Both the position numbers and the translations under genes were made by a program. From NCBI GenBank assembly GCA_958009085.1, contig OY253670.1:372001-436000 (forward strand): a stretch of DNA of 64,000 nt, in the 5' to 3' direction. Shown here one piece after another: positions 17,291 through 52,498 of this stretch. Position 1 is the first letter of the stretch; every line of letters starts with the position of its first letter. The DNA is from Protoeuglena noctilucae (lineage: Eukaryota > Chlorophyta > Pedinophyceae > Marsupiomonadales > Marsupiomonadaceae). The notes beneath the pieces were generated by a model that did no database searches, was not told where the DNA came from, and worked only from the letters and a program-made list of their open reading frames with translations.

Positions 17291-20200
17291 CTACCACCAC
17301 CTCTCTCTCCTCCCATCCCTCACCAATGTCTCCACCCTCCCCTTCCCTTTCCCCTTCTTCCCCTCACGCCCCGCCCCACGCCCCGCCCCCGCCCCTCCCT
17401 GCCCAGCCGCCCCACTGTTACCCCCACCGCTGCTCCCCGCCTCCCCATCCGCGTTTCGCTTTGCTGGAGGTTCCTCGTTACCACCATTACCCCCACCCTC
17501 GCCCCGGCTCCCCACCAACTCCTTGGCGAGAGCCACGCCTCCCCTTGATGCCGTCAGCACAGCGTCGCTCCCCTCCCCGCCCTCTGCACCTGAAAAGAAG
17601 CGGGACAGGGTAGGGTTTCAGTGAGACCATTGCATGTGAGCCGAGGCACAAAGGGTCACAGCCACGGCCACAGCCACAACACATCATCCCTTACGCATGG
17701 CACCCCTCACATCCCCCACCTCCCCAACACCCCAAATCACCCCAACACCCCCTCGCCTGCTGCCCCCCCCACGTGTGCCAGTACGGTCGCCTGCGCCCCC
17801 GTGAAGAATCGATGGCTGAATCGGGGCTGCATGGGCTGGGCCAGTCGTGTAGATAGCTGGGCACGCAATGACCGTGCCTGAGCCAACGCCTTTGCGTCTG
17901 CCTTGGTGCGGGGGGAGGGGCCTGGGGTGCAAGAGTAAGAGAGAAGAGAAGTTGCAGTTGGGTTGCGGTTGCATCGGGTTGCGAGTTGCATGTGATGGGG
18001 GGTGACAAAGGAACAGTGGCACTTACAATCCACATTTTGACGCTCGCCTTTCCCATCAGCACCCACTCTCACTCACCCCCACTCCTCCCCTCACCTTCCC
18101 CGTCCCCCTCCCCCTCATCGCCCTCCACCTCAAGCCCCACCTTCCCCATCCCCACCCCCACTCCTCCCCTCACCTTCCCCGTCCCCCTCCCCCTCATCGC
18201 CCTCCACCTCAAGCCCCACCTTCCCCATCCCCACCCCCACTCCTCCCCTCACCTTCCCCGTCCCCCTCCCCCTCATCGCCCTCCACCTCCAGCCCCGCCT
18301 CCTCGGCATTGCGCCGCATCCAGTCACCCTCAGCCTTCTGCTTGCGCATGCCCCGCTCAATGTCATCCACACGCATCGCCAACGCCAAACGAGCCTTGGC
18401 CTCTGGCAGCACTGCGACAGAGGGAGGGCGATGAGTGCATCATGGGGTGATGTGTTATGGGTGGCAGAAGGGGATAAGTGTGTGGGGTGACGTGCCGCTT
18501 TGTCACCACAAGTGAGGGGTGCGTGGCACAAGGGAAGCGAGCGCAAGCGACAGAGGGGCACAACGTTGCGATGCTATGAGTGCCCACAAAACTGTCCCTT
18601 GTGAGCTGAGCCAATTCAAATCACTGTACAGTCACAGTCACTGACCTGTGGTGGACAGTCGCAGTCACTGAGTCACTAACCTGTGGGGTCTACGGGGAAC
18701 TCGGGTGGCAGGTCGTCGACGAGGTGAGCGAGGAGGGCGAGGTACCTCGGCTTGTCGGGGGGGGTGACCAGGGCCACGGAGAGACCCTCCTGCCCCGCGC
18801 GACCGGTGCGGCCGGCACGGTGCACGTAGATGTCTGCGTGGGGGGGTACATGGAGATAGATGACTGCGTTGGGTAAGTGGGGTGAGAGATGCCGATGTGT
18901 GTGGATGGGTGGCTGGCAGCTGCATGCGCGGGGAGTGCGGATGGCATGTGAAGGTAAGAAGTAGCATTGCTAATGCCGTACACTCACCCAGGCTGGCGGG
19001 CATCTGGTAGTGCACCACGCACCACACACAGACACACCACCCACACACACACACCCACCCACCACGCATGACACACTCACTCACCCAGGCTGGCGGGCAT
19101 CTGGTAGTGCACGACGCACCGCACCCCCCGGACGTCGATGCCCCTCGCCGCCACGTCCGTGGCCACGAGGACCGCGGAGGGATTCGAACCGAACCGCTCC
19201 AGGCTCCGCAGTCGCTGCCGCTGCTGCTGCTGGGCGTGGATGGCGTGGGCGGGGAGGCCCAGGATGGAGAGGAGCGCCACCACGCGCCGCACGGCCGACA
19301 CCGCGTTACAAAAGACCATCGTCCGGCCCGGGTGCAAAGCGAGGAGGTAGTAGAGCAGCGCGTCGCGGTCGCGATCGAGGCACTCGATGTGCGCCTGGTG
19401 GACCCCCGCGGCCAGGCGACGGGAGGACGTCACGTCGACGATGTCTGGCACGGCACCGCCACGCCAGATGCGCTCCACCAGGGCCTCGATCTGCAAACGC
19501 GATAACAGAAACGTGTTAAATATGTATATACAACTCAGAATATGCGTGAGCTTTCCTGCACGGCACTCGGAGCGGGCGGGTGGGAGGTCAGCAGCGAGGG
19601 CGTGTCAACTTGATCCCACCGCAGCACGCCCTCTGCGCCAGAGCGAGCCTCACGTTGGGCGCCCTGCCGCCGTATCCGCCCTTGCCGCGCTCGACTTTCT
19701 TCTTCCATGACTGCGGGAGCGTGAGCGTAGCCGAGAAGAGCATTCGCGTGACTTGCAGCCTTGCCCCCCGCCTCTTCCGGGCCAAACGCTCCTGCTCCCG
19801 CAGAACCGCGTCGCCGCGGTCCTCGTTCGGATCGACGGAGAGGAACTCCGCGTGGTCGGCGCCCCTGCAAAGCGATGATAAGGAGGGTGAGGGTCGGGGA
19901 GTGGAGGCAGGAGCACGCATGGCCACAGTCCCAGCTATGTGTGTCCATCCCGACAAGACGCCACAGGACGAACAGTCACTTGAGAGCACGCAGACAGATG
20001 CAGGCAGGCGTGCTCAAGAGAGAGCTCGAAGCCAGTCATAATGCCCCCACATCGGAGCTCGGCTGGCGTCGCCTTGCCTTGTGTGCATGTGCATATGACC
20101 CAGGCGCTCACCAGAGGGGCGACAATCGATCGAGGATGTGCATGAGTTCCTGGAAATGTCCCTTCTCCGCCATTCGGTCCGCCTCGTCAATCACCAGGAA

Positions 20201-21627
20201 TCGAAGTCCCGATGTGTCGGTGAGATGCACGTGGTCCCCGCTGCTCATCAGCTCCCACAGCCGCCCGGGAGTCGCCACCACCACCTCAGGGCGGTATCCT
20301 ACCAATCGCTCCTGTTTCTGATGCGAGATGCCCCCCACGATTGCCACAGTGCGGATGCCACAGGGGCGGCCCACCGCCGCGAAGTGCTCCGCCACCTGAA
20401 GGGCCAGCTCCCGCGTCGGGGCGAGGACCAGCGCGCGGAGGCGGCGGTCGGCCGCAGCGGCGTCCCTGCAAGCGCGCGAAGCGGGGGGCGTGAGGCAGGG
20501 GCGAGGCGGGGAGCGCAGGTGGGAGCGGCAGGCAGCGAGCGTCGGCCGATGAACCCCCAAACGCGCGTGCGCACGCGAACCGCACCCGTCCGCGTCGCTC
20601 TCTGTGGCCCCGACTGCTGCGCGCTCCTCCCGCTCCTGCAGTAACCGCTGTAGGATGGGCAGCGCAAAGGCAAGCGTCTTGCCGCTGCCCGTCTCGGCCG
20701 CGCCCACGACGTCCCGGCCGTCTCGCGTCACGCGCGGAATCACCGCCTTCTGGATCGGAGTCGGCCTCTCGAATCCAACTTTCGACAGCGCCGCCTCGAT
20801 GCGCGGATGGAGCAGGAGGGGCCGCCACGCAGACACGTCCACCCCCGGGGACGCATCCTCCTCCGCTCCCTCCTCCTGAGACGCCGCGAAGAGACAAGCG
20901 AGATATATAGTGCGGAACTAATGATGGCGCCGAACAGAATTACGCTTCGCCGCGGCGCGCGCACCTCCGCCTCCACGGCCTTCGCTTCGGCCCTTTCCTT
21001 CGCCTTGGCCCTCTTCCCGCGCCGCCCCTCGACCGCTCCCGACCCGCTCTTTCCTTCCTCGCTCTCCGCCCGCTCCCTGCCTCGCTTCGCGCCGCCCTCC
21101 CTGGCGCGCCCCTCCCCAGCAGCACCCGCACCGTCGGCTTCCCCCGCCCCCGCCTCGCGCAGCAGACGGTTTGCCTTCTCCTGGAGCTTCCGCGCGCGCT
21201 CCAACAGTTTCTCTCGTCGAACGTCGTCCTCGGCGCCGGATTCGTCCCTCGCGCCGCCCTGCGCCTTCGCTGGAGTCTTCCCGGCCTTCTTTCGCGAGCC
21301 GCCGTCACCGCCCGGGGCGCTTGTCCGCGCGGCAAAGAACTTATCCGGATTCAGGCGCTCAATAACCATCAGCCCGGGCTCCGAGAGGCCCCCGAAGAAG
21401 TCGTCGCCGGGCGCCACGGGCTCAAAGGCGTCATCGACCGCTGTCCTGCGGCCAAAGCGTGCCGGGGAGCGCATTCCGCGCCTCCCGAGACGCACGAGGG
21501 GAGTTTACGTGGCAAGTAAAAACGCACGGTCCTCACCAGTCGATGTCGGCGAGGTCGGCTGCCGCTTCCAGCGGGGGAGCAGCCTCGCCGCCTCGTGCAT
21601 CCTTGCGTTTCTTGACCGCTTTTCCCA
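17291..21627 (-). CDS. Mak5/DDX24-type DEAD-box RNA helicase
   Basis: Exon 1 (21627-21537) encodes MGKAVKKRKDARGG and ends in ADIDW. Exon 2 continues TAVDDAFEPVAPGDDFFGGL and a long charged coiled region. The helicase core follows: WRPLLLHPRIEAALSKVGF with FERPTPIQKAVIPRV (Q motif), [16 protein letters not shown] (I), LVLAPTRELALQV (Ia), VVVATPGRLWELM (Ib), FLVIDEADRMAEKGHF (II), MLFSATLT (III), ATDVAARGIDVRGVRCVVHY (V), YVHRAGRTGRAG (VI). C-terminal exons give the KARLALAMRVDDIERGM helix, then exon 17921-17791 (LAQPMQPRFSHRFFTG), then a Gly/Lys-rich tail ending at 17291. WxxV near the N-terminus and the tail blocks fit Mak5/DDX24 (60S ribosome assembly, nucleolus). The last intron is GC-AG (donor 17790). 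Three introns carry tandem copies of their own donor. Confidence 0.88.
18078..18300 (-). repeat. 79-bp minisatellite carrying exon end plus 5' splice site (Mak5)
   Basis: About 2.9 copies with a 79-base period; unit starts fall at 18081, 18160 and 18239 on the plus strand. Each unit contains, on the minus strand, GAGGGGGACGGGGAAG|GTGAGG, which is the 3' end of the Mak5 exon plus its donor. The period is not a multiple of 3, and reading through the first unit meets a stop. Only the exon-proximal donor gives the phase needed by the next exon at 17921. Confidence 0.85.
18626..18690 (-). repeat. Duplicated 5' splice site in a Mak5 intron
   Basis: The exon ends CCACAG|GTTAGTGACT at 18681/18680. 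A second copy, CCACAG|GTCAGTGACT, lies about 35 bases into the intron, followed by a similar GTGACTGYGACTG tail. Confidence 0.7.
18981..19120 (-). repeat. 96-bp spaced duplication of exon end plus donor (Mak5 motif V exon)
   Basis: The stretch encoding VVHYQMPASLG and its GTGAGTG donor occurs at 19077-19120 (the exon) and again at 18981-19023 inside the intron, 96 bases away. The spacing is a multiple of 3. Use of the distal donor would insert 32 residues (a Val/Cys/Trp-rich run plus a second copy of the peptide) without a frameshift. Confidence 0.85.
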
Positions 21628-21950
21628 TCTCAAACTGGGAGCGCGACTTCACTGACGGCAGCCGCCATTACGGAGCGCCAAGAGGCAGGGACGCCAGCTG
21701 AGCTGCAGCGGGTCTGGCACGAACACGCCAGCCCATGAAACGGGCTCCGCCGCGCAAAAGGCTTGCTGGGGTGAAGCTCCTGGTCAATGCCTGCTAGCTA
21801 ATTGTATTCCTCACCACCACTGTTGCATAAGACGCACCACGTGCCCCGTGGAAGCTTGCAACGTGGCCGCATGCCTCTGTCGTCACTTAGGAAAGGCTAG
21901 GGGGCAGTTCAAGTGCTCGCACCGCGGGCCCATAGCCGGGCTACGCGCGC
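21628..21950. other. Divergent intergenic region, Mak5 / EAF6
   Basis: A short shared upstream region between two divergent genes. No defensible promoter element seen. Confidence 0.4.
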
Positions 21951-22594
21951 ATGTCCGGGGTCGTCCAGCAGGCGCTCGAGCACTACGCGCAGAAGCGCGA
22001 GACGCTGCAGGTGCCCCGCTGAAACCGCCTCGCAGAGCTCCGTCGTCATGCGACACGCTTGCGTCTTTGTTATTTCATCTGGGCCCGCCAAATGGGATTT
22101 TGTGGCTTCGAGCGCGTCGCGCCGCGGCATGAAGTACCGCCCCGCCCCTCGTGGCGTCCCGCGCCGCGAGCTTTCCGGCCGCCGAAAGCGCGAGCATGGG
22201 AACGTTACGTGCATCGTGCAGGAGGACGTGCGGGTTTTGGACCGGAAGATCTACGATTTGGAAGGAGCGTACCTTGGGTCCGAGAGCAGCCAATGCGGGA
22301 CGGTGTTCAAGGGCTTTGAGGGCTTCATGTCCAGCAAGGACGCAAATCGTAGGGTAAGCGGAGGCGTTGGGGCGGAAGAGCTTCGCCAGTCTCGCATAGG
22401 CTGGCCAGTGTCTTGGGTTGTGTCGCACGACCGACCATTTCAATGTCTGGTGCTTCTCGCAGCGCGGCAGGGTCTTCAAGGCCGACGAGCGACTCTTCTC
22501 TCTGTCATCCTTGACGAGTCCCGCGCACCAGGAGGTCGAGGCGGCGATAGAGGCCGAGCAGGGCGTGGGTGGGGGCAAGAAGGGCAAGCGATGA
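21951..22594 (+). CDS. EAF6/MEAF6-like histone acetyltransferase subunit
   Basis: Three exons: 21951-22010 (MSGVVQQALEHYAQKRETLQ), about 22221-22354 and about 22463-22594. Joined, they give DVRVLDRKIYDLEGAYLG, then CGTVFKGFEGFMSSKDANRR, then VFKADERLFSLSSLTSP, about 110 residues in total. This is the full order of the EAF6 family: a coiled coil ending in LExxIYxxExxYL, a GxxxxGFxGF turn, and D-R-L-F-S-x-S-S. EAF6 is a small subunit of NuA4 and of MYST-type acetyltransferase complexes in the nucleus. The stop is 19 bases from the stop of the convergent LRR gene. Confidence 0.87.
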
Positions 22595-22613
22595 CTTGAA
22601 CCGATGAACGGAG

Positions 22614-24626
22614 TCACAGCCTGGCCACCATCCACATGCCGTCGACGCAGTAGGGCCGCACGTCGAGGTCCAGCTCGCGTCCCTCCTCTGCCAACTGCTC
22701 CAACACCTCCGCCAGAGTCTGGCTGGACGACGGGCCGAAGCGGTTGTCCCACACGCGCACGTACTGCGTGGGGCGGGCAAGACACAGGCCATGTCATTTC
22801 GATGCCATGACCATCGCTCCTTTACCCTTTCTTAATGCCGCTCCTCGCCCTGTGTCTAAGCCACTGTGGTTCCCATGCTTTCCGGCGTATCCCATGCATC
22901 TGTGTCAGCTGGCAATGGCCTTGCCTGTAGGGACGGGCACTGCGCCAGCGTCTCCGAAACCGCCTCCAATCCCAGGTCGTTGATGCAGCACGTCTGCAGG
23001 TCGAGGCGCCAGATGTTGCACTGGTCGCCCATGTCGATCATCGCCTGGCACAACTCCACCACCGCCGCGTCCCCCAGCCTGCGTGGCACGGGCAGCATGC
23101 GTGCGGTCAGAGCTTGGCAGGAAGCCCCGCACCGTTGCGTCGACCTGGCGATGTCAATCCAGCGTTGCTCGTATGAGTTAGCGTTGCTCGCTTCATTCCG
23201 TCCTCATCCTGTGCTCCCACCTGTTCCCTGCCAAGTCCAGCTCCTCCAGGCACGGGAGCTTCTTGACCATCTCCGCCAACGTCGGCCCGCTGACGTCCGA
23301 GAGCTGGTTCGACCGCAGCGACTGCAAGCGAGAGGAGGAAGAGGGGACGTGTTCGTTCCCAAACCCGGGAGGATCGCAATCAGCAACATTCCACAGTGCC
23401 ACCCACGCGATACTGCAGTGGGCTCCACTGCGCAGGCAGGGTCCTTATGATATATGACATCAGCAACTCACCAGCGACACGATGCCCGAACCCGTGGGCA
23501 GGGCCGTTCTCATGAGGTACTGCAGGTCGTGGTCCTGTATTTGGCAGACCTTGAGGCTCAGCTCCTTCAGCGCGGAGCAGGCGCTGATCACGTTGCCCAG
23601 GTGCCGCGTGGAGTGCTCCGAGGGGCCCCGGAACGTCGGGGCGTCGATCTTGAGCGACTCGAGTGTCGCCTTGCACGCGCCCTCGTGGGTAGCAGCAAAG
23701 AGGCCCATGAGGCCCTTCATGCCCACGCCGGTGTAGCCGATGTCGAGCATGGTCTGCGAAGGGCCGGGTCGGGCGGGCGCGATGTGCAGCCGGCGACGAT
23801 TGGCTGGTGAGAGCGCCGGCTGTGTGTGTGCGACGTTGCGCGTGCAAGTTGCTGGGCGATGCCTGCGGGCCGCTGCGCTTACCAGCGTGTCGTGGGTGCG
23901 GAGGAAGTCGGAAAGGCGCAGGATGCCGTCGTCGGTGATGCCCGGGTTGCAATTGAGGACGAGCTGCTGCAGTCCCGATCCCCGGGACTCTGCCAGGGCA
24001 TCAACGAGCGCGACCAGACCGTCGTCCGTGACGCGGTTGTTCGACAGGATGATGCTCGCGATGTTGGGATTGCGGCGCACCAGGGCGGCCAGCGCCCGCA
24101 CGCCCTCGTCATCGATCCTGGAATGCGGGAGGGACCGACATGAGCCCGGCAGGGTTGCGTGTAGAGCGAGCGTTCTTAGCCCAGCAGCATGCCGCGACGA
24201 AAGCAGGACCGCATCGCGTACCTGTTGTAAGAGAAGTCGAGCGTGTGGACGTTGGCGTCGTCCTGGAGGGCCTCGGCGATGGCGGTGACGTCCGTGGAGT
24301 CGAGGCGCTCGTTGAAGAGGACCTTGGAATTGCCCGTGAGCTTGATGGCTGCCACCACCGAGTTCACTTGCACCGCGTTCTGCACGCAATTGGCGCTTCC
24401 AGTCATACCGCGTGCCGTGCGCGTGAGGGGACGTACACCAGCAGCAGCATCGCCGTCCCGCCTCCCGACAGGCCAGACTGGAACTCTCTGGCCACGCAGA
24501 GTTTCGGTCTGACGTTCGATAGCATGTCGTAACGTCTCTCGCCTTCAGGCCGTTGACGAGGATGTGGAGCGGCTCGACCTGCAGCCTCTCGCATGCCGCC
24601 GTGTAATTGGCGAGGAGGTGGTCCAT
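22614..24626 (-). CDS. LRRC34-like leucine-rich-repeat (RNI-type) protein
   Basis: The start at 24626 gives MDHLLANYTAACERLQVEPL, similar to the LRRC34 opening. Ribonuclease-inhibitor-type repeats follow in successive exons: LDSTDVTAIAEALQDDANVH with TLDFSYN; IDDEGVRALAALVRRNPNIA with SIILSNNRVTDDGLVAL; LQQLVLNCNPGITDDGILRL; ALKELSLKVCQIQDHDLQYL; PCLEELDLAGNR; and WRLDLQTCCINDLGLEAVSE. The C-terminal exon has LAEVLEQLAEEGREL and ends VDGMWMVARL. LRRC34 is found in ciliated and germ-line cells, so a ciliary or nucleolar role is possible but not shown here. The first intron has a GC donor (AAG|GCGAGA at 24542). Convergent with EAF6. Confidence 0.72.
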
Positions 24627-25056
24627 GGCACCGGACCGGGGGCCCGGAAGCCCCCACGAAGTCTAACGGCGATACTCTGTCACAGACGTGGCAGCCGGCC
24701 AAGCAGCGAGGACGCCAAGGGGTGGAACAAGTGTGTATGCTTCAGTGTGTGCTTGTCCGATGAAATCAGGGGCTGTGCGTTGTGAGCAAGTTTGGATTGT
24801 GAACAAGTGCAGAGACTGAGGTGGAGTAGGGAGATTTTGAGCGCAACAGAGGTGATTGGCTTAAGCGCAAGTTGCAGCGCCAGCGATGGTTGCAGCGCTC
24901 GATCTCAAGCACGCCCGAGAGCGCGAGCTTATGCGTTGTTTTCCATGCATCTCTGACACGTGCCGAGTGCTTGCATCCGTTGTTCGCACGCTGGCAACGG
25001 CAAGCCCACGCGAAGTCTTGCCTCTTTGCTCCACGAATGGGCTCTTTCCAGCGACC
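24627..25056. other. Divergent intergenic region, LRRC34-like / J-protein
   Basis: This is the shared upstream region. An open frame in phase with the J-protein extends back to 24886, so translation could start earlier than 25057. Confidence 0.35.
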
Positions 25057-25932
25057 ATGATTGCCACGGATGGCATCGTTTTCCGACCCAGCCGCCTGAC
25101 CCGGTCTCGGGGTGCAGCGGGTCCCACGCAGGGGCGCACGTTGCTCGGAGCACCACGCTGGCATCAGGCGAACTCCGTTTCGCCCACTGCGTTCGTCCTC
25201 CGCGCTCTCCGCGATGATCGAAGCGTGCGCGACCCGTATGTCGTGCTCGGCGTGCCACGAGGGGTGCGTGGAGCTGCGGCGGGGCTGCCCAGGGAAACGT
25301 ACCCGGCCCGCACGCGCGCGGGACGACGACACGTCGATGACCCCGCCCTCGCAGGCATCTCGAGCGGAAATTCGCATGGCGTATCGCGCCATGATGAAGC
25401 AACTGCACCCGGACGTGAAAAGCGCCGACACAACTGCCGCTGCGGTGGAGGTGCCTCTGCCCGCCCTTTGCGATGCGTGGCGATGCGTGGCAATGTCATC
25501 GTGGTCGCTGTGTGACAAGCGTTGCCCTCCTTCCGTCTCCGGCAGGTCATTGAGGCGTACCGGTCGTTGATGGGCGAGACGCGGGCACGGTTAAGCGAGG
25601 AGGAGGAGAGCGCCCCAACCGGTCCGCAGGGCGACATCTTCGACTTCCCTGAGGGCCCAGCGGACGCCATTTTCGTCGATCCCTTCGCCTGCCTCAACGT
25701 AGACCCGTCGCTGTGGAGGGAGCTGCAGCAGGTCGTGCGCTCTGCGGAAGAGTCGGGGCGTGACCCTTTCGACGCCCTCACCGCCAAGGGCGTGTCGGGC
25801 CAGGGGGCAGTGACGTGGCTGACGCAGTCGCAGCTGTCGGATTTGGAAGAAGAGTTGGAGCTCATGGAGAAGTCCTTTTCCTACGAGACGTCACGATACT
25901 ACGTGCAGGACTGCCTGCTGCGAGCCAGGTGA
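25057..25932 (+). CDS. J-domain protein with degenerate ferredoxin-like tail (plastid-type)
   Basis: Three exons: 25057-25263, about 25353-25448, and about 25547-25932. An N-terminal basic, Ser/Arg-rich presequence precedes DPYVVLGV. The J domain continues in exon 2 as ASRAEIRMAYRAMMKQLHPD with the HPD tripeptide, and exon 3 as VIEAYRSLMG. The tail reads AIFVDPFACLN, later AVTWLTQSQLSDLEEELELM. Plant and algal plastid J-proteins have a 4Fe-4S ferredoxin domain with exactly this framing (FVD-x-x-x-CIGC... and IHW-x-x-x-x-QL-x-x-LE). Here only the first cysteine survives, so cluster binding is unlikely. Organellar targeting is inferred from the basic start and the domain pairing. Confidence 0.75.
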
Positions 25933-26370
25933 GGGAGGGACTCAATGCATGACGTGGTTACTCGGCGCTAGTCACTGTTACTCAGAAGAGACGTCGCCGC
26001 ACTTCCGCACCAGCCACCTCAGCAGCTGCGCCTCTCCCCCATGCCCGCAGCGGTGCCTACAACCGTGGTACACGAGGCTTTGGATGAGGCGGTTCTGTAA
26101 GGCAATGCCAGTTTCTAGCATGCCACGCCTCAGTGCCAGGTGGCTGTTTGCTTGCTATGGGTCCCTGACATGTTCTGACCCACATCACATCTATCCACTC
26201 ACATTTTTGGGTGCCCATTTATCCCCTTTTTCTTGCCAGCCGCTGAGCATCCCACTTCCCAGGGCCCCTCCCAGTGTTGCTGTTGCCGTCATCGCCTTTG
26301 GCACGTTTCAACCAAGCCGTCGCACGCACGGCAGCAGCCACGCTCGCCCGCCCGCCGAGCCCCTCGGCTC
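25933..26370. other. Convergent 3' flanks
   Basis: Intergenic stretch between the J-protein (+) and NOG1 (-) stop codons. It is less GC-rich than the genes. No gene or RNA seen. Confidence 0.45.
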
Positions 26371-29300
26371 TCATCGCCGGTCCGTCTTGCCCTGCTTGCG
26401 CTTCCCCGAGAAGAGGTGCTTGGGCATCTTGTTGAACAGGCGACGGTCAGCCTCGCCAGCGCGCGCCCGGTGCTTGTCCATCGACAGGTGTCGCTGCGGG
26501 GAGCAAAGCACGAAATGCAATTCGAATATACTCACAAGTGACTCCGGCGCAGCAGACGCGCCGCAGCGGGTGCGCGGGAGCGAGTGATGGGTGCCCTCAG
26601 GCGGACGATGATGGTCGCCCTTTAGTTTTGTCAACACGATCCATCGGCCGGTGCTACCCAGCCATTCAGGTCTCAAAGATTGCATTCCCTCGCAGGGCAC
26701 CTTCCCCCGCGCGAACCACGCCAGAGTTGCGGTTCGCAACCACGCTCTTTTTGCGCTGTACACACATGACCACTCCCGCCCCCACTCGCCTGCGCCACGT
26801 CCCCCATCTTGAGCGATTTGTTCCTCTGCGATGCGTCCTTGAGGCCGGACCCGGGCGCCACGGGCGCCATCGACACGCTCCGTCCCCGCGACAGGCTGCG
26901 GCTGGGCTTGGAGTGCGTGCGCACCCGCTTGCGCCCCTCCCCGCCCATCTCCGCGTCCCCGTCGTCGTCGACCTCCGCGCCGCCCCTGGAAGAGGCGCGG
27001 GACTCGCTCAGGCCGCGCTTGAGGGGGCGCCCGCGCGACTGGGACCTGCAAGCACAACACGGGAGGAGGGTGCAGTGGGGCGCATCGGGTGCGGTCACTC
27101 ATGTAGCATAAAGCAAACGATCCAGGCGGTGAAACATATGCTTAGCAGGGAAAAGCAGGGTGGTATGAGCGAGTCTTAGTGAGCCCTGCAAGTGAGGACC
27201 CAGCCCTCCTCTCACCGTATCCGCGCCTCTGCCGCAGTCGTGTCCACCCCCCGCCCCCGCAGCTCCTCCCTGGCCCTCTCTAGCCTCTCGTCTCCCGCGT
27301 ACGAGGCCACCGTGCGTGGCACCACCGGGTTGTTGGACGCACGGACCTTCTTCTCCCGACTCAAGGCCTGGGGACGCAACACAAAGGGTGGGGCGTAAGG
27401 CATCGGCACGTGTGGGGGGCTGCGAGTGGCGTGCGTTGTGTGTGGGACGGGCACCAAGCGTGCCAGGCGTGCTTGTGCTAGTAGTTGTCACAAAGCACCA
27501 ACATGGCATCGTCCCCCCCGTCGCTTCCTCACCTTGAGCTTCTTCTTCTTGTCGTTGATGCGCATAAGCAGAGCACGGTCCTCTGGGGTCAGGTCCTCCT
27601 CTGCAGGGATGGCTTCCGCCATCGACTGCTCCTGAAAGCACGATAAGACACGACGGACATGAGGTTGAGGCTGACTTTGAGGTTGAAGCGGGGTCAACGA
27701 GGGAGGCGCCGAGATAGATGCACTCCTAACTAGCTCGGTTGCAGTCGGATGCAGCCGCTTGCTGCCATGTCACACGCTGTGGTGTGGCATGCCGTTAGTC
27801 AGCACCCACCCCCGCTACCTCCACATCTCACCCGCACCCACCTGCCAGTCTCACCTGCCACTCCCTCAGCATCTCGTCCCCCTCCCTTCTACCACCACCC
27901 TAACAACTCTCACCTGCCACTCCCTCAGCATCTCACCCCACCACCACCCGCTCATCTCACCTGCCACTCCCTGAGCATCTCGTCCTCCTCCCTTCCACCA
28001 CCCACCCGCAAAGCCTCACCTGCCACTCCCTCCTTACCACCTGCCACTACCCCACCAACTCTCACCTGCCACTCCCTGAGCATCTCGTCCTCCTCCCTCT
28101 CCAGCGCCTCCAGCTTCGCGTCGATGTCCGGGTCCACGAAATCCGCCACGTTGTGCCCGTCGAGCGTCTCTGGCATGACGTCGTAACGCCAGTCCGCCGG
28201 CAGGTCGTACATCTTCCGCAAGTCCGCGTTGTAGACACCCGCGCCGCCGTTCTCCTCTTGCAAATCGCGCTGTGAGTTATGGAAGCGGAAAAGACTGCAT
28301 TTGCACGTAGCATACACACGGCCAACACGAAACAAGTTCGACAAGCCCGCACCCTCCATCCAGTGTCCATGTTCCATCTCCCACCCCAAACTCTTTTCAC
28401 AAGCCCCTCTCTTCCATTCCCCTAACACACCCGCTTTCACCACCCATAGCACCACCGCGCGCCCCTCACCTCCGTCTTTCTTCGCACCACCTCGCGCCCC
28501 GCCCCTCACCTCCGTCTTTCTTCGCAGCCCCTCCTCCCTGGCCCTCCGCGCCGCCTCCACCCCCGCCGGGATCACGGGCGGCCTCGCCGCACCCCCCGTC
28601 GCCTTGGGCACCGCCACGTGCACCCGATTGGCCACGTCAGCGACTTTCTTCGATCGCAACTTGAGCTGCACCCGCGCCGCCAGCAGCCTCTCGCACGCCA
28701 GGTTCTTGACTGCCTGGACTGACGCGTCGTCTGTCAGAGTCGACATGGCCGCGAAGCACGTCTCGCCCTGGCCGGCGTGGGGCGGGATGCCGCCGTTGGA
28801 GATCTTGGCGGCCTGGGGGGGATGGGGGCGGGGTGGCGGGGGTGTCAGGATGGCGGGGGGGGGTGGGCGGGGGTGTCAGGATGGGGAGTGAGTGGCGGGG
28901 GTGTCAGGATGGGGGGTGAGACAGTGGCAGGGGAGGAACCAAGTGGCACAGACCCTCGACATCCCAGCCACCACCCACCACCCCACCCACCCCGCCCTGC
29001 CCTTACCTCCCCCACCATCTCTTGCGCAGTCCGCCAAACACCCCAAACCACACACACCCGCTCTACCCACTCCACCCTCCCCTCACCTCCACCACATCTC
29101 CTGCACACACCCTCAACAACCCCACCAACACACACCAACTCCCCACCCCACCCTCCCCTCACCTCCTACACCATCTCCTGCACAGGCCCTCAACATCCAC
29201 ACCACCCCACCCTCTCACCTCCTCCACCATCTCCTGCACGAGCCCCCTGGCCTCCTCCCCCAGTGCCTCGTAGGGCGTCACGTCGACCTTGTTCACCACC

Positions 29301-50201: not shown

Positions 50202-52498
50202 TCACCCTGTCCCCCCCTCCGCCATCTCCACCTCCTCCTCTCCCCCCGCCCCCATCGCCACCCCCACGCCCGCCCCCGCCCCTGCACCCCGCGCCCACTC
50301 GCCACTCCCCACCTCCTCAATGCGCACTCCCCCGCTCCCGAAACCCCGAAACGACGCGTCACCCGCGCCCGCGCCCTGCCCCAGCCCTCCCCACACCCCA
50401 AACGACGCCCCCGCACCCGCACCCCCCTCCGCACTCCCAGACCCACCCTGGCTCAACGGCTCCTCCACCCAGACCCTCCCGGTGCTCGCGCTGCTCCCTG
50501 GCCCCGCGGGCGCCCCATTCCTGTCGTCATCGTCCCCTATTTCCTCAATCACCACACCCCCTGGGTTCCTTGCAAACCCCACCCTCGTCGCACCGTCTGC
50601 CGCCCCCGCTTCGCACCCACCCATCACCGCATCGATACCCAGCGGCTCATTCCTCGCCATGTACTGAAAAAGGACCTTGCTCCAGGTGTCTGCGCGGCCC
50701 CGGCGCTGGTTGCCCACCCCCTCCAATCGCAGGTCCGCACCGGCAGGCGCGCCTCCCTGCAGCACAATCCCGCCCTCACGCACCGAGAATCGCAGCAGGC
50801 GGCCGTCGGGGGCCATGGGCCGGCCGGGACCGGCGCGCTGTGCGTCCATGAAGGCATTTGGCATGCGTGCCACGACGACGGGCGGGTCGTCCTCTGGGGT
50901 GGTACAGGAGATGGGGTGGAGGGTGAGGGTGGGGGTGGCAGGGTGGCATTTGAGACCCTGACAGCCCCGTCCATCCTCAGCCACATCAAATAGATATGCA
51001 GTCAGAACATAATATGCATATAATACATCCAATGCAAGTCGCCGCCTCACCGGTGGCCACGGTGCCGTCCATCCTCAGCCGCAGCGACACGACTTGGTGC
51101 GTGGGGACGCGCCCCTCCGCATCGGTCTCCAGAAAGAACCGACTGCAGGAGGGGTCCTTCCAGAGTAGAGCCAGGGGCGTGCCGCCCGGCGCGTACATCA
51201 TGCCCTTGTGAAGGAACAGCAGGCCGTCCCGATCGAACTCGACGGACGCGTCGCGATATGCCTGCCGCACCCCCTGCGCCGTCGCCGGCCAAAAGGGCAC
51301 CACCCGGAATTCGAACGGACACCCGTCCTTCCCCCGCGGACCCTCGCACGCGGCCTCGGCCCGGCTGCCACGGCTGTCTCCCATCTCCGCGTCCCCCTCC
51401 TCTTCTTGCACCCCACCCTGGCGCCCTGCACCGGGAACGCCACCCACCGCGAACCCCTCGTCTTCGCTGCTTTTCGAGTGCGCCCAAAACAGCCGGAAAT
51501 CCGCGCCGCAGTCCTCCAGTGCCACCCCGCGCCACGCAACCACGTCTGTCACCCAAAAGACGCCCCGCTGCTCATCAAACACGCAGTCCAGCACGCAGCC
51601 GTCCGCGCCCTGCGACGAGCCTAAACCACCGCCAGGAAGCCTCGACCTGAGAGGGCCGAAGCAGCAGCGGGGTTGCAGTGGGTGGTGGGGGGGGCGGGCA
51701 TAGTGCACCTGAGACACCCTGCCACCTGTGTCACGGCAGGTCGTGCTGGCTTGGCTCAGTTGCTGGAGATGCAATGGTAGGCTTGTAGTTGCGTTCACGT
51801 GACTCCCCGTGACTCTTGCAACTCACTTGAACCTCCGAATGACAACCCCTGTCCTGTTGCGTGCGACCGTCCACCCTGCGCCGCTGGCCACAAGGCACCG
51901 CTGTCCCTCCGGCCGCGCCATCACCAGCCATTGGTCCCCCAGGTCCCCCGGGACGCTCGTCATCCATTCCGGGTGCATCATTTGGCGGGACCAGAACTCG
52001 CGCATACGTGCGCTCTGGCCTGCGAGCAGCCGGAAACACATTCGGCAAAATGACGTGATAAAATCGCAACAATAGTTGCCATCTACGCGGCGTCGAGGAC
52101 GAAGGGCCGGCCAGCGCAGGGAGAGGACCGCAGCACTCACTTGGGACCACGGCCGTAGTCGAGGGCAGGCCCGGCGTGGACATGGGGGCGTCCGACGCGG
52201 TGTCCGAGTCGGTGCCCCGCATCGCACTCTGCGGAACAGGTGCGAGCGCCTCATCGAGCCATCCCAGGCCGAGTAATCTCAGGTTTACGCCCAAGAGCCA
52301 ACGCCAGCGCACGCCGTCGCCCACCTGCGCCATCTCCTCATGATGCGCGCGCGCTAGTTTGATCGCCAGCTCTCGGCGCTTGCTGCGGTCCCGCTGCGCC
52401 GCCTCCAGCGCCCGCTTCCTCCGCTTCTCTTGGAAGCTCGCCGCATCCGCGGCCTTCAGCCCCTTCGGCATGCCCTGCCGTGCACGCCCGCGCGCCAC
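50202..52498 (-). CDS. SNUPN: Snurportin-1 (m3G-cap snRNP import adaptor)
   Basis: Exon 1 (52498-52325) has SFQEKRRKRALEAAQRDRSK and ELAIKLARAHHEEM, an importin-beta-binding-like basic helix. After a linker exon come MMHPEWMTSVPGDLGDQWLV with PEGQRCLVASGAGWTVARNR, then SRLPGGG, CVLDCVFDEQRGVFWVTDVV, and ADFRLFWAHSKSSE. These are the cap-binding domain blocks of snurportin (P-x-G-K/QRC, the LP-G-G turn, LDC, DV-x-W, FR-x-FW). The next block, DGLLFLHKGMMYAPGGTPLA, also matches. The adaptor carries trimethyl-capped snRNPs into the nucleus. The C-terminus is extended by an acidic and Gly/Ala-rich region ending at 50202, longer than in animals. Confidence 0.88.

Follow-up and report, generated by a model that had tools for sequence, protein, structure and literature searches.

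Exon edges and splice sites duplicated directly within the longer introns of the green alga Protoeuglena noctilucae

Several systems are known in which intron sequence repeats neighbouring exon sequence, and our account of them follows selected passages of the papers cited. New introns of Daphnia pulex carry direct repeats, some with adjacent exon bases, which were ascribed to staggered breaks (PMC4202315). In potato RdRp (PMC4974935) and in Drosophila (PMC2891723) a short exon segment is duplicated in tandem and part of the copy becomes intron, the potato duplication running across an intron-exon boundary (PMC4974935). In the fission yeast genes SPOG_01682 and SOCG_00815, as described in PMC4974935, an intron extends across several tandem copies of an exonic segment, a 24-bp repeat with AGGT. 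Opposite nicks with 43- or 50-bp overhangs gave tandem duplications in mouse cells (PMC8355091), and introners are insertions that likewise concern introns (PMC9860276). Here we describe a related arrangement in P. noctilucae, first seen in a 64-kb stretch of contig OY253670.1 (positions 372,001 to 436,000; hereafter the window), where introns of the genes MAK5 and NOG1 contain copies of the end of their upstream exon together with its 5' splice site (donor), in places several in a row as a ladder.

Among these systems the Daphnia repeats are the nearest known kind, yet they are shorter and come without a splice site. Both cases show direct repeats, some of which repeat terminal exon bases; inserted DNA lies between them in Daphnia and, as it appears, between some copies in the alga, and passive intron growth by repeated rounds was proposed in Daphnia (PMC4202315). 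However, the exon-sharing repeats there measure 4-12 bp and lie at the opposite end of a new intron (PMC4202315), whereas the blocks in the alga hold up to 55 exon nt and a strong splice site, lie inside longer introns and can form ladders. When compared to potato and Drosophila, an existing intron appears to grow in the alga with no new intron arising, and the copies do not score as acceptors: in tandem duplications of the Rogers type the first copy supplies the GT of the intron and the second its AG, whereas 0 of 42 copies in the alga score as acceptors and the NOG1 introns end at separate acceptors. The fission yeast passages concern two genes (PMC4974935) against 15 of 94 in our 324-kb enriched sample (defined below), where an existing splice site marks the end of the block and, in many cases, diverged or unrelated DNA separates the copies. 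The duplications at overhang breaks resemble ours in their size range and direct orientation, both of which fit fill-in of staggered ends; the passages on them deal with engineered mammalian breaks and mention no link to splice sites (PMC8355091). Among the papers listed for us by one open-access library, which lacks most subscription journals, none was seen to describe such a pattern across a genome, and what we did not see there, as far as those passages go, is the block size, the splice site within the block, its sharp edge, the scale of the ladders and their frequency.

The window itself was picked for this finding. It was combined with 20 other 10-kb stretches from five contigs into a sample of 264 kb, about 1% of the source assembly (26.3 Mb in 26 contigs). 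An enriched set of 324 kb consists of the same 264 kb and six stretches picked beside positive loci, and its totals are biased upward. Gene models were made with a home-made ab initio hidden Markov model, seeded with NOG1 and self-trained on the 264 kb; the introns are as predicted by this model, NOG1 excepted, and gene names beyond NOG1 and MAK5, such as VPS11-like, were read off the predicted proteins. The 264 kb contain 456 predicted introns with exons on both sides (median 130 nt), and 418 of them were testable, the 38 left out being shorter than 60 or longer than 1,000 nt or having flanking exons below 30 nt. In the donor test the last 40 exon bases and the first 6 intron bases were aligned to the remainder of their own intron, with a score of at least 14 as the cut. 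Low-complexity matches were removed in the junction-blind scan, in the tally of direct and inverted matches at cut 14 and in the tally of block lengths.

Donor-side copies were found in 18 of the 418 introns, while 0.07 were expected from the edges of other genes. Mirror copies of the downstream exon start at the acceptor side occur in 6 of the 418, all six in the 20 stretches, and a control with the exon block just upstream gave a copy in 0 of 356 introns. The 20 stretches alone yield 12 introns with donor copies out of 314, spread over 6 of 58 genes (within-gene clustering p 0.006), together with acceptor copies in 6 of 314 and controls in 0 of 262, with 0.05 donor hits expected; the corresponding values for the window alone are 6/104 donors, 0/104 acceptors and 3/21 genes (p 0.053). 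In the enriched set, 32 of 527 introns have donor copies and 11 of 527 acceptor copies, and a copy of either kind is present in 15 of 94 genes; clustering by gene has p 0.0006 in this set. The repeats are real, exceed chance and are not restricted to two genes. An earlier sequence-only reading had seen them in MAK5 and NOG1 alone, a limit that the 20 stretches remove. Its suggestion that the repeats mark a tolerated route to intron lengthening is borne out by their concentration in longer introns, since donor copies in the enriched set occur in 0/128 introns below 100 nt, 2/282 below 150 nt, 5/95 of 150-199 nt and 25/150 of at least 200 nt.

The source of the copies is the adjoining exon edge. 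At a score of at least 16, 22 of the 549 exon ends upstream of an intron have a copy in that intron, as do 7 of the 542 exon starts downstream of it and 1 of the 549 starts of the upstream exon, whereas none of 8,914 direct comparisons with the edges of the gene's other exons and none of 11,096 inverted comparisons matched. The spacing is 36-125 nt in 41 of the 52 junction-spanning copies. The process is local direct duplication and not scattered insertion, and the proposal that each array arose from its own junction agrees with these counts.

Both MAK5 and NOG1 lie on the minus strand, and the ladders appear as CTCAC on the plus strand. By E-value, the first match of MAK5 is from Oxalis (37%) and the second from Pedinophyceae sp. 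YPF-701 (55% over 531 columns); the best named matches of NOG1 are from Parachlorella kessleri (67%) and Pedinophyceae sp. YPF-701 (63%). Six ladder introns had been claimed in the two genes and five of them pass the cut, the sixth (MAK5 18626-18690) sharing 6 exon bases and the donor at a score of 9. The accompanying claim of an intact AG|GT at every donor fails at the MAK5 19085 junction, which is GG|GT. In the five passing introns, listed with related features in Table 1, the copied exon part is 12-48 nt long and the intron part starts with GTGAG or GTAAG in all 11 intronic copies.

Table 1. Introns of the window with copies of their upstream exon edge, and related features (window positions).
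Feature	Position	Strand	Details
NOG1 ladder intron	28813..29218	-	exon-side donor 29218; copy donors 29162, 29086, 29006
NOG1 intron, one copy	28270..28509	-	exon-side donor 28509; copy donor 28469; head-to-tail repeat of the whole unit
NOG1 intron, four copies	27632..28065	-	exon-side donor 28065; copy donors 28019, 27960, 27913, 27854
MAK5 intron, one copy	18834..19084	-	exon part 18988-19027; copy donor 18987; score 41
MAK5 intron, tandem array	17584..18252	-	79-bp true tandem array; copy donors 18173, 18094; 3' end as predicted
MAK5 intron, sub-threshold	18412..18680	-	second GTCAG donor-like site 35 nt on (18645); score 9
Further gene, weak intronic exon copy	50894..51050	-	score 16; match ends 14 nt before junction; no donor in copy

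The arrays differ in their construction. The NOG1 exon end at 29219 is followed by three copies, 56, 132 and 212 nt on (scores 23, 19 and 15; exon parts 29163-29183, 29087-29106 and 29007-29025). At NOG1 28066 there are four copies at 46, 105, 152 and 211 nt (scores 17, 40, 26 and 33), which alternate to form a nested unit of about 106 nt; Tandem Repeats Finder (TRF) reports a period of 106 with 83% matches at 27824-28103. The single copy at NOG1 28510 lies 40 nt on (score 26; TRF at 28449-28533: period 40, 2.3 copies, 80% matches), and the two at MAK5 18253 lie 79 and 158 nt on (scores 50 and 50; TRF at 18074-18300: period 79, 2.9 copies, 98% matches). In the last two cases the whole unit of 40 or 79 bp is repeated head to tail, as in a minisatellite, which does not hold for MAK5 19085 and others. 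MAK5 19085 has one copy 97 nt on, and in the intervening DNA no homology was detected to the DNA past the copy (both flank tests p 1.0). A further MAK5 exon near 17920, possibly ending in a GC donor, was probably missed by the model, as judged by eye. Several ladder genes also contain intron-only C-rich or G-rich minisatellites, often with periods of about 24-48 (e.g. 28820-28916 of the window).

The shape of the copied block was evaluated independently of the gene edges by a junction-blind scan for ungapped direct repeats in the 264 kb. Of the 54 clusters found, 32 join exon and intron sequence, 17 lie wholly in introns and 3 wholly in exons, 2 join exon and intergenic DNA, and none is purely intergenic. 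The three exon-only repeats (L010 8478-8589, L015 4685-4784 and L016 9865-10000) have spacings of 96, 63 and 114, each divisible by three, which would follow if exons keep only in-frame duplications. Among the 264 introns of at least 150 nt in the 324 kb, 26 have a repeat across the donor, 8 across the acceptor, 11 across the 25% point and 5 across the midpoint, and mid-exon points are spanned in 0 of 392 cases. Without the low-complexity filter the counts are 27, 8, 12, 5 and 0, respectively, the intergenic count being available in filtered form only. In the 26 donor cases the block reaches a median of 27 nt into the exon and 7 nt into the intron, the exon side being longer 22 times and shorter 3 times (p 0.00016), and acceptors show a softer edge (21 and 10 nt). 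When all predicted introns are counted, the block extends at most 10 nt into the intron in 21 of 30 donor cases; the exon part is 4-55 nt there and at least 15 nt in 24 of the 30. In alignments of 27 copies anchored on the match, identity is 0.97 across the ten bases centred on the junction (five of exon, five of intron) and drops to 0.61 in the five intron bases that follow.

As to splicing, the NOG1 model equals protein P0001 (JGI) over all 691 residues and 9 introns. We judge P0001 to be spliced because the contig of its record measures 3,364 bp, shorter than the 4.7-kb genomic span of the NOG1 coding exons. At each of the three NOG1 ladders, the identical protein record points to use of the exon-side donor. 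The copy donors are strong by score (median 7.0; GT donors as a whole have 6.1, and the exon-side donors in the introns that hold these copies have 7.8), so the description of the arrays as decoy or alternative donors fits their strength, but NOG1's one spliced record uses the exon-side donor and splicing at a copy donor would bring a frameshift or stop in 36 of 42 cases. The prefix up to the copy donor is open in 13 of 42 cases against a background of 533 of 1,063 (p 0.018).

Between the exon and its copied part, 68 differences were counted in 1,038 aligned bases. Codon differences comprise 26 synonymous and 27 non-synonymous changes, near the 0.44 calculated for an exon that changes silently and a copy that changes freely. 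A few copies are strikingly silent (for example in the L017 gene near 7820), yet the total is about that expected with only the exon constrained. The codon differences, and spacings without multiple-of-three bias (13 of 42 divisible by three), speak against a coding function for the copies. We take them to be non-coding and mostly passive, and NOG1 suggests that the exon-side donor wins.

We account for these observations by recurrent local duplications across splice junctions, probably through the repair of staggered breaks, tolerated since splicing keeps the exon-side copy, and we give this explanation a probability of about 0.55. In most cases a staggered break, or a pair of opposite nicks, would straddle the exon-intron junction; fill-in of both overhangs, followed by end joining that may bring in extra DNA, would duplicate the exon edge and splice site directly. 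Some events would be plain tandem duplications of a whole unit, as in the MAK5 79-bp and NOG1 40-bp cases. With splicing at the exon-adjacent copy the protein would stay unchanged and the remainder would become intron, and repeated events would build ladders and long introns. Copies would thus persist because splicing uses the exon-adjacent copy, a preference that the NOG1 protein record indicates and that we extend to the other genes. Filler that looks unrelated often lies between the copies, with lengths of 9 to 112 nt and one of 250, and MAK5 19085 and the L017 gene near 5278 have near-identical blocks with no flank homology detected.

Several observations weigh against this explanation. 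The flanking intron still resembles its counterpart in 15 of 39 donor copies and in 7 of 10 acceptor copies (rank p <=0.1 vs other loci), and in 11 of 34 by a local-alignment test (donor and acceptor together). Intergenic points had a repeat in 0 of 351 cases, though intergenic DNA should tolerate such events. The intron side of the block is at most 10 nt in 18 of the 26 donor cases, and random breaks leave so constant a block end at the splice site unexplained. Donors exceed the 25% intron point by a modest margin (26 against 11 of 264, p 0.016; some of the 11 may be ladder copies), and their excess over acceptors is not significant in the 20 stretches (12 vs 6 of 314, p 0.23), where two genes hold 7 of the 12 donor copies. 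At cut 14 in the 264 kb, low complexity aside, there is one inverted match beside 42 direct ones. For donor use, there is no own-species record for MAK5 among the 120 matches listed, and the near-identical record of the VPS11-like gene (G000 C5:507884-509605, L024), protein P0241, is an unspliced read-through whose 574 residues match the DNA including introns.

The flank homology of so many copies means that many may be decayed whole-unit tandem duplications without filler. It is conceivable, if rather unlikely, that this holds for all of them, with slippage or unequal exchange duplicating units of 36-125 bp, the intron part then decaying fast and the edge perhaps being refreshed from the exon by gene conversion. 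The local and direct nature of the copies suits such a process, and the MAK5 79-bp and the NOG1 40-bp and 106-bp arrays are plain tandem units. The Daphnia-like feature of a repeat flanking a non-homologous insert appears to apply to some copies, and the 15 of 39 donor copies above keep homology instead. On the other hand, when neutral whole-unit duplication with equal rates was simulated, an intron-side edge of at most 10 nt arose in 14-30% of detected cases compared with the 18/26 observed, and extreme indel rates raised this to 42% at most, so that more or longer indels did not reproduce the sharp edge. To match the data, the intron flanks had to change about 4-8 times faster than the copied edge in the same intron; as the simulations are simple (uniform ages, our own rate assumptions and a detection step that differs from the position test), this 4-8-fold figure is a guide and not a measurement. 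The near-identical blocks without detected flank homology at MAK5 19085 and in the L017 gene also argue against whole units throughout. Since the edge is sharper than in the neutral simulation, it was either copied alone with filler or refreshed or preserved afterwards.

In a further explanation, either the duplication or the survival of its product depends on the splice site itself, through breaks targeted there (for example by transcription or R-loops) or through selection for spare U1-binding or splicing-regulatory sites. The lopsided block, the donor-spanning counts relative to mid-intron and intergenic points, the strength of the copy donors and their clustering by gene would all suit it. 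However, 11 of 53 donor-side copies match without crossing the junction, there is no frame bias, prefixes to copy donors are open less often than the background, and the excess over the 25% intron point is modest; we consider this explanation improbable. The broader statement that splice sites direct duplication or the survival of its products, their consensus defining the intron side of the block at donors and less sharply at acceptors, is doubtful on present evidence. The process may be seeded at splice junctions, as the sequence-only reading had suggested; the donor-spanning excess alone can be explained by exon constraint favouring survival, and a stronger hint comes from the sharp end of the block at the splice site.

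Three other candidates have very little probability. That the filler is a mobile introner-like element and the repeated exon edge its target-site duplication is suggested by the order repeat, filler, repeat, and largely refuted, for the fillers searched, by three that each match only themselves genome-wide (3/3; the search skips simple repeats), by an all-against-all comparison of introns in the 324 kb that gave 37 short matches, those inspected mostly C- or G-rich, and no family common to unrelated introns, and by the varied lengths of filler and exon part. Recursive-splicing (AG|GT ratchet) sites, or new-intron acceptors of the Rogers type, would need an acceptor signal (pyrimidine tract and AG) directly before the internal GT, and this is lacking: AG precedes GT in 25 of 42 copies but none of the 42 reaches the 5th percentile of predicted acceptors. 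An artefact of gene prediction, low complexity or assembly might be feared from our own ab initio models and several G-rich arrays, but the cross-gene and upstream-exon controls yield almost nothing, the NOG1 model is borne out along 691 aa, and the VPS11-like locus, with an acceptor copy, recurs unchanged across 574 codons in another record, on a 399,371-bp contig from an assembly that is possibly not independent.

Some other features of the introns were recorded. Acceptor-side copies of exon starts were apparently called as extra small exons at L017 5842-6081 and L024 3779-3837, and annotators could err alike. In the 324 kb, 78 of 582 predicted introns start with GC in a near-invariant context, AG|GCGAG (A at -2 0.96, G at -1 0.99, A at +4 0.96, G at +5 1.00); the gene finder penalises GC donors and so favours strong contexts, and the GC-AG share is predicted only. 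Longer introns are G-rich in their first half and C-rich in the second, with a mean GC skew of +0.26 and -0.32 at 200-299 nt, and this strand asymmetry could let both halves pair in RNA.

Intron lengthening has mostly been inferred from old, decayed sequence. Here one compact genome shows many apparent intermediates of the process, and the copies carry their source and direction. The ladders are also natural tests of donor competition, with several strong donors in a row and, in NOG1, apparent use of the exon-side one. If splice sites do direct the duplication or the survival of its products, introns would grow by events that act on or preserve exon edges and splice sites, with full-strength spare donors passed over for the exon-side one.

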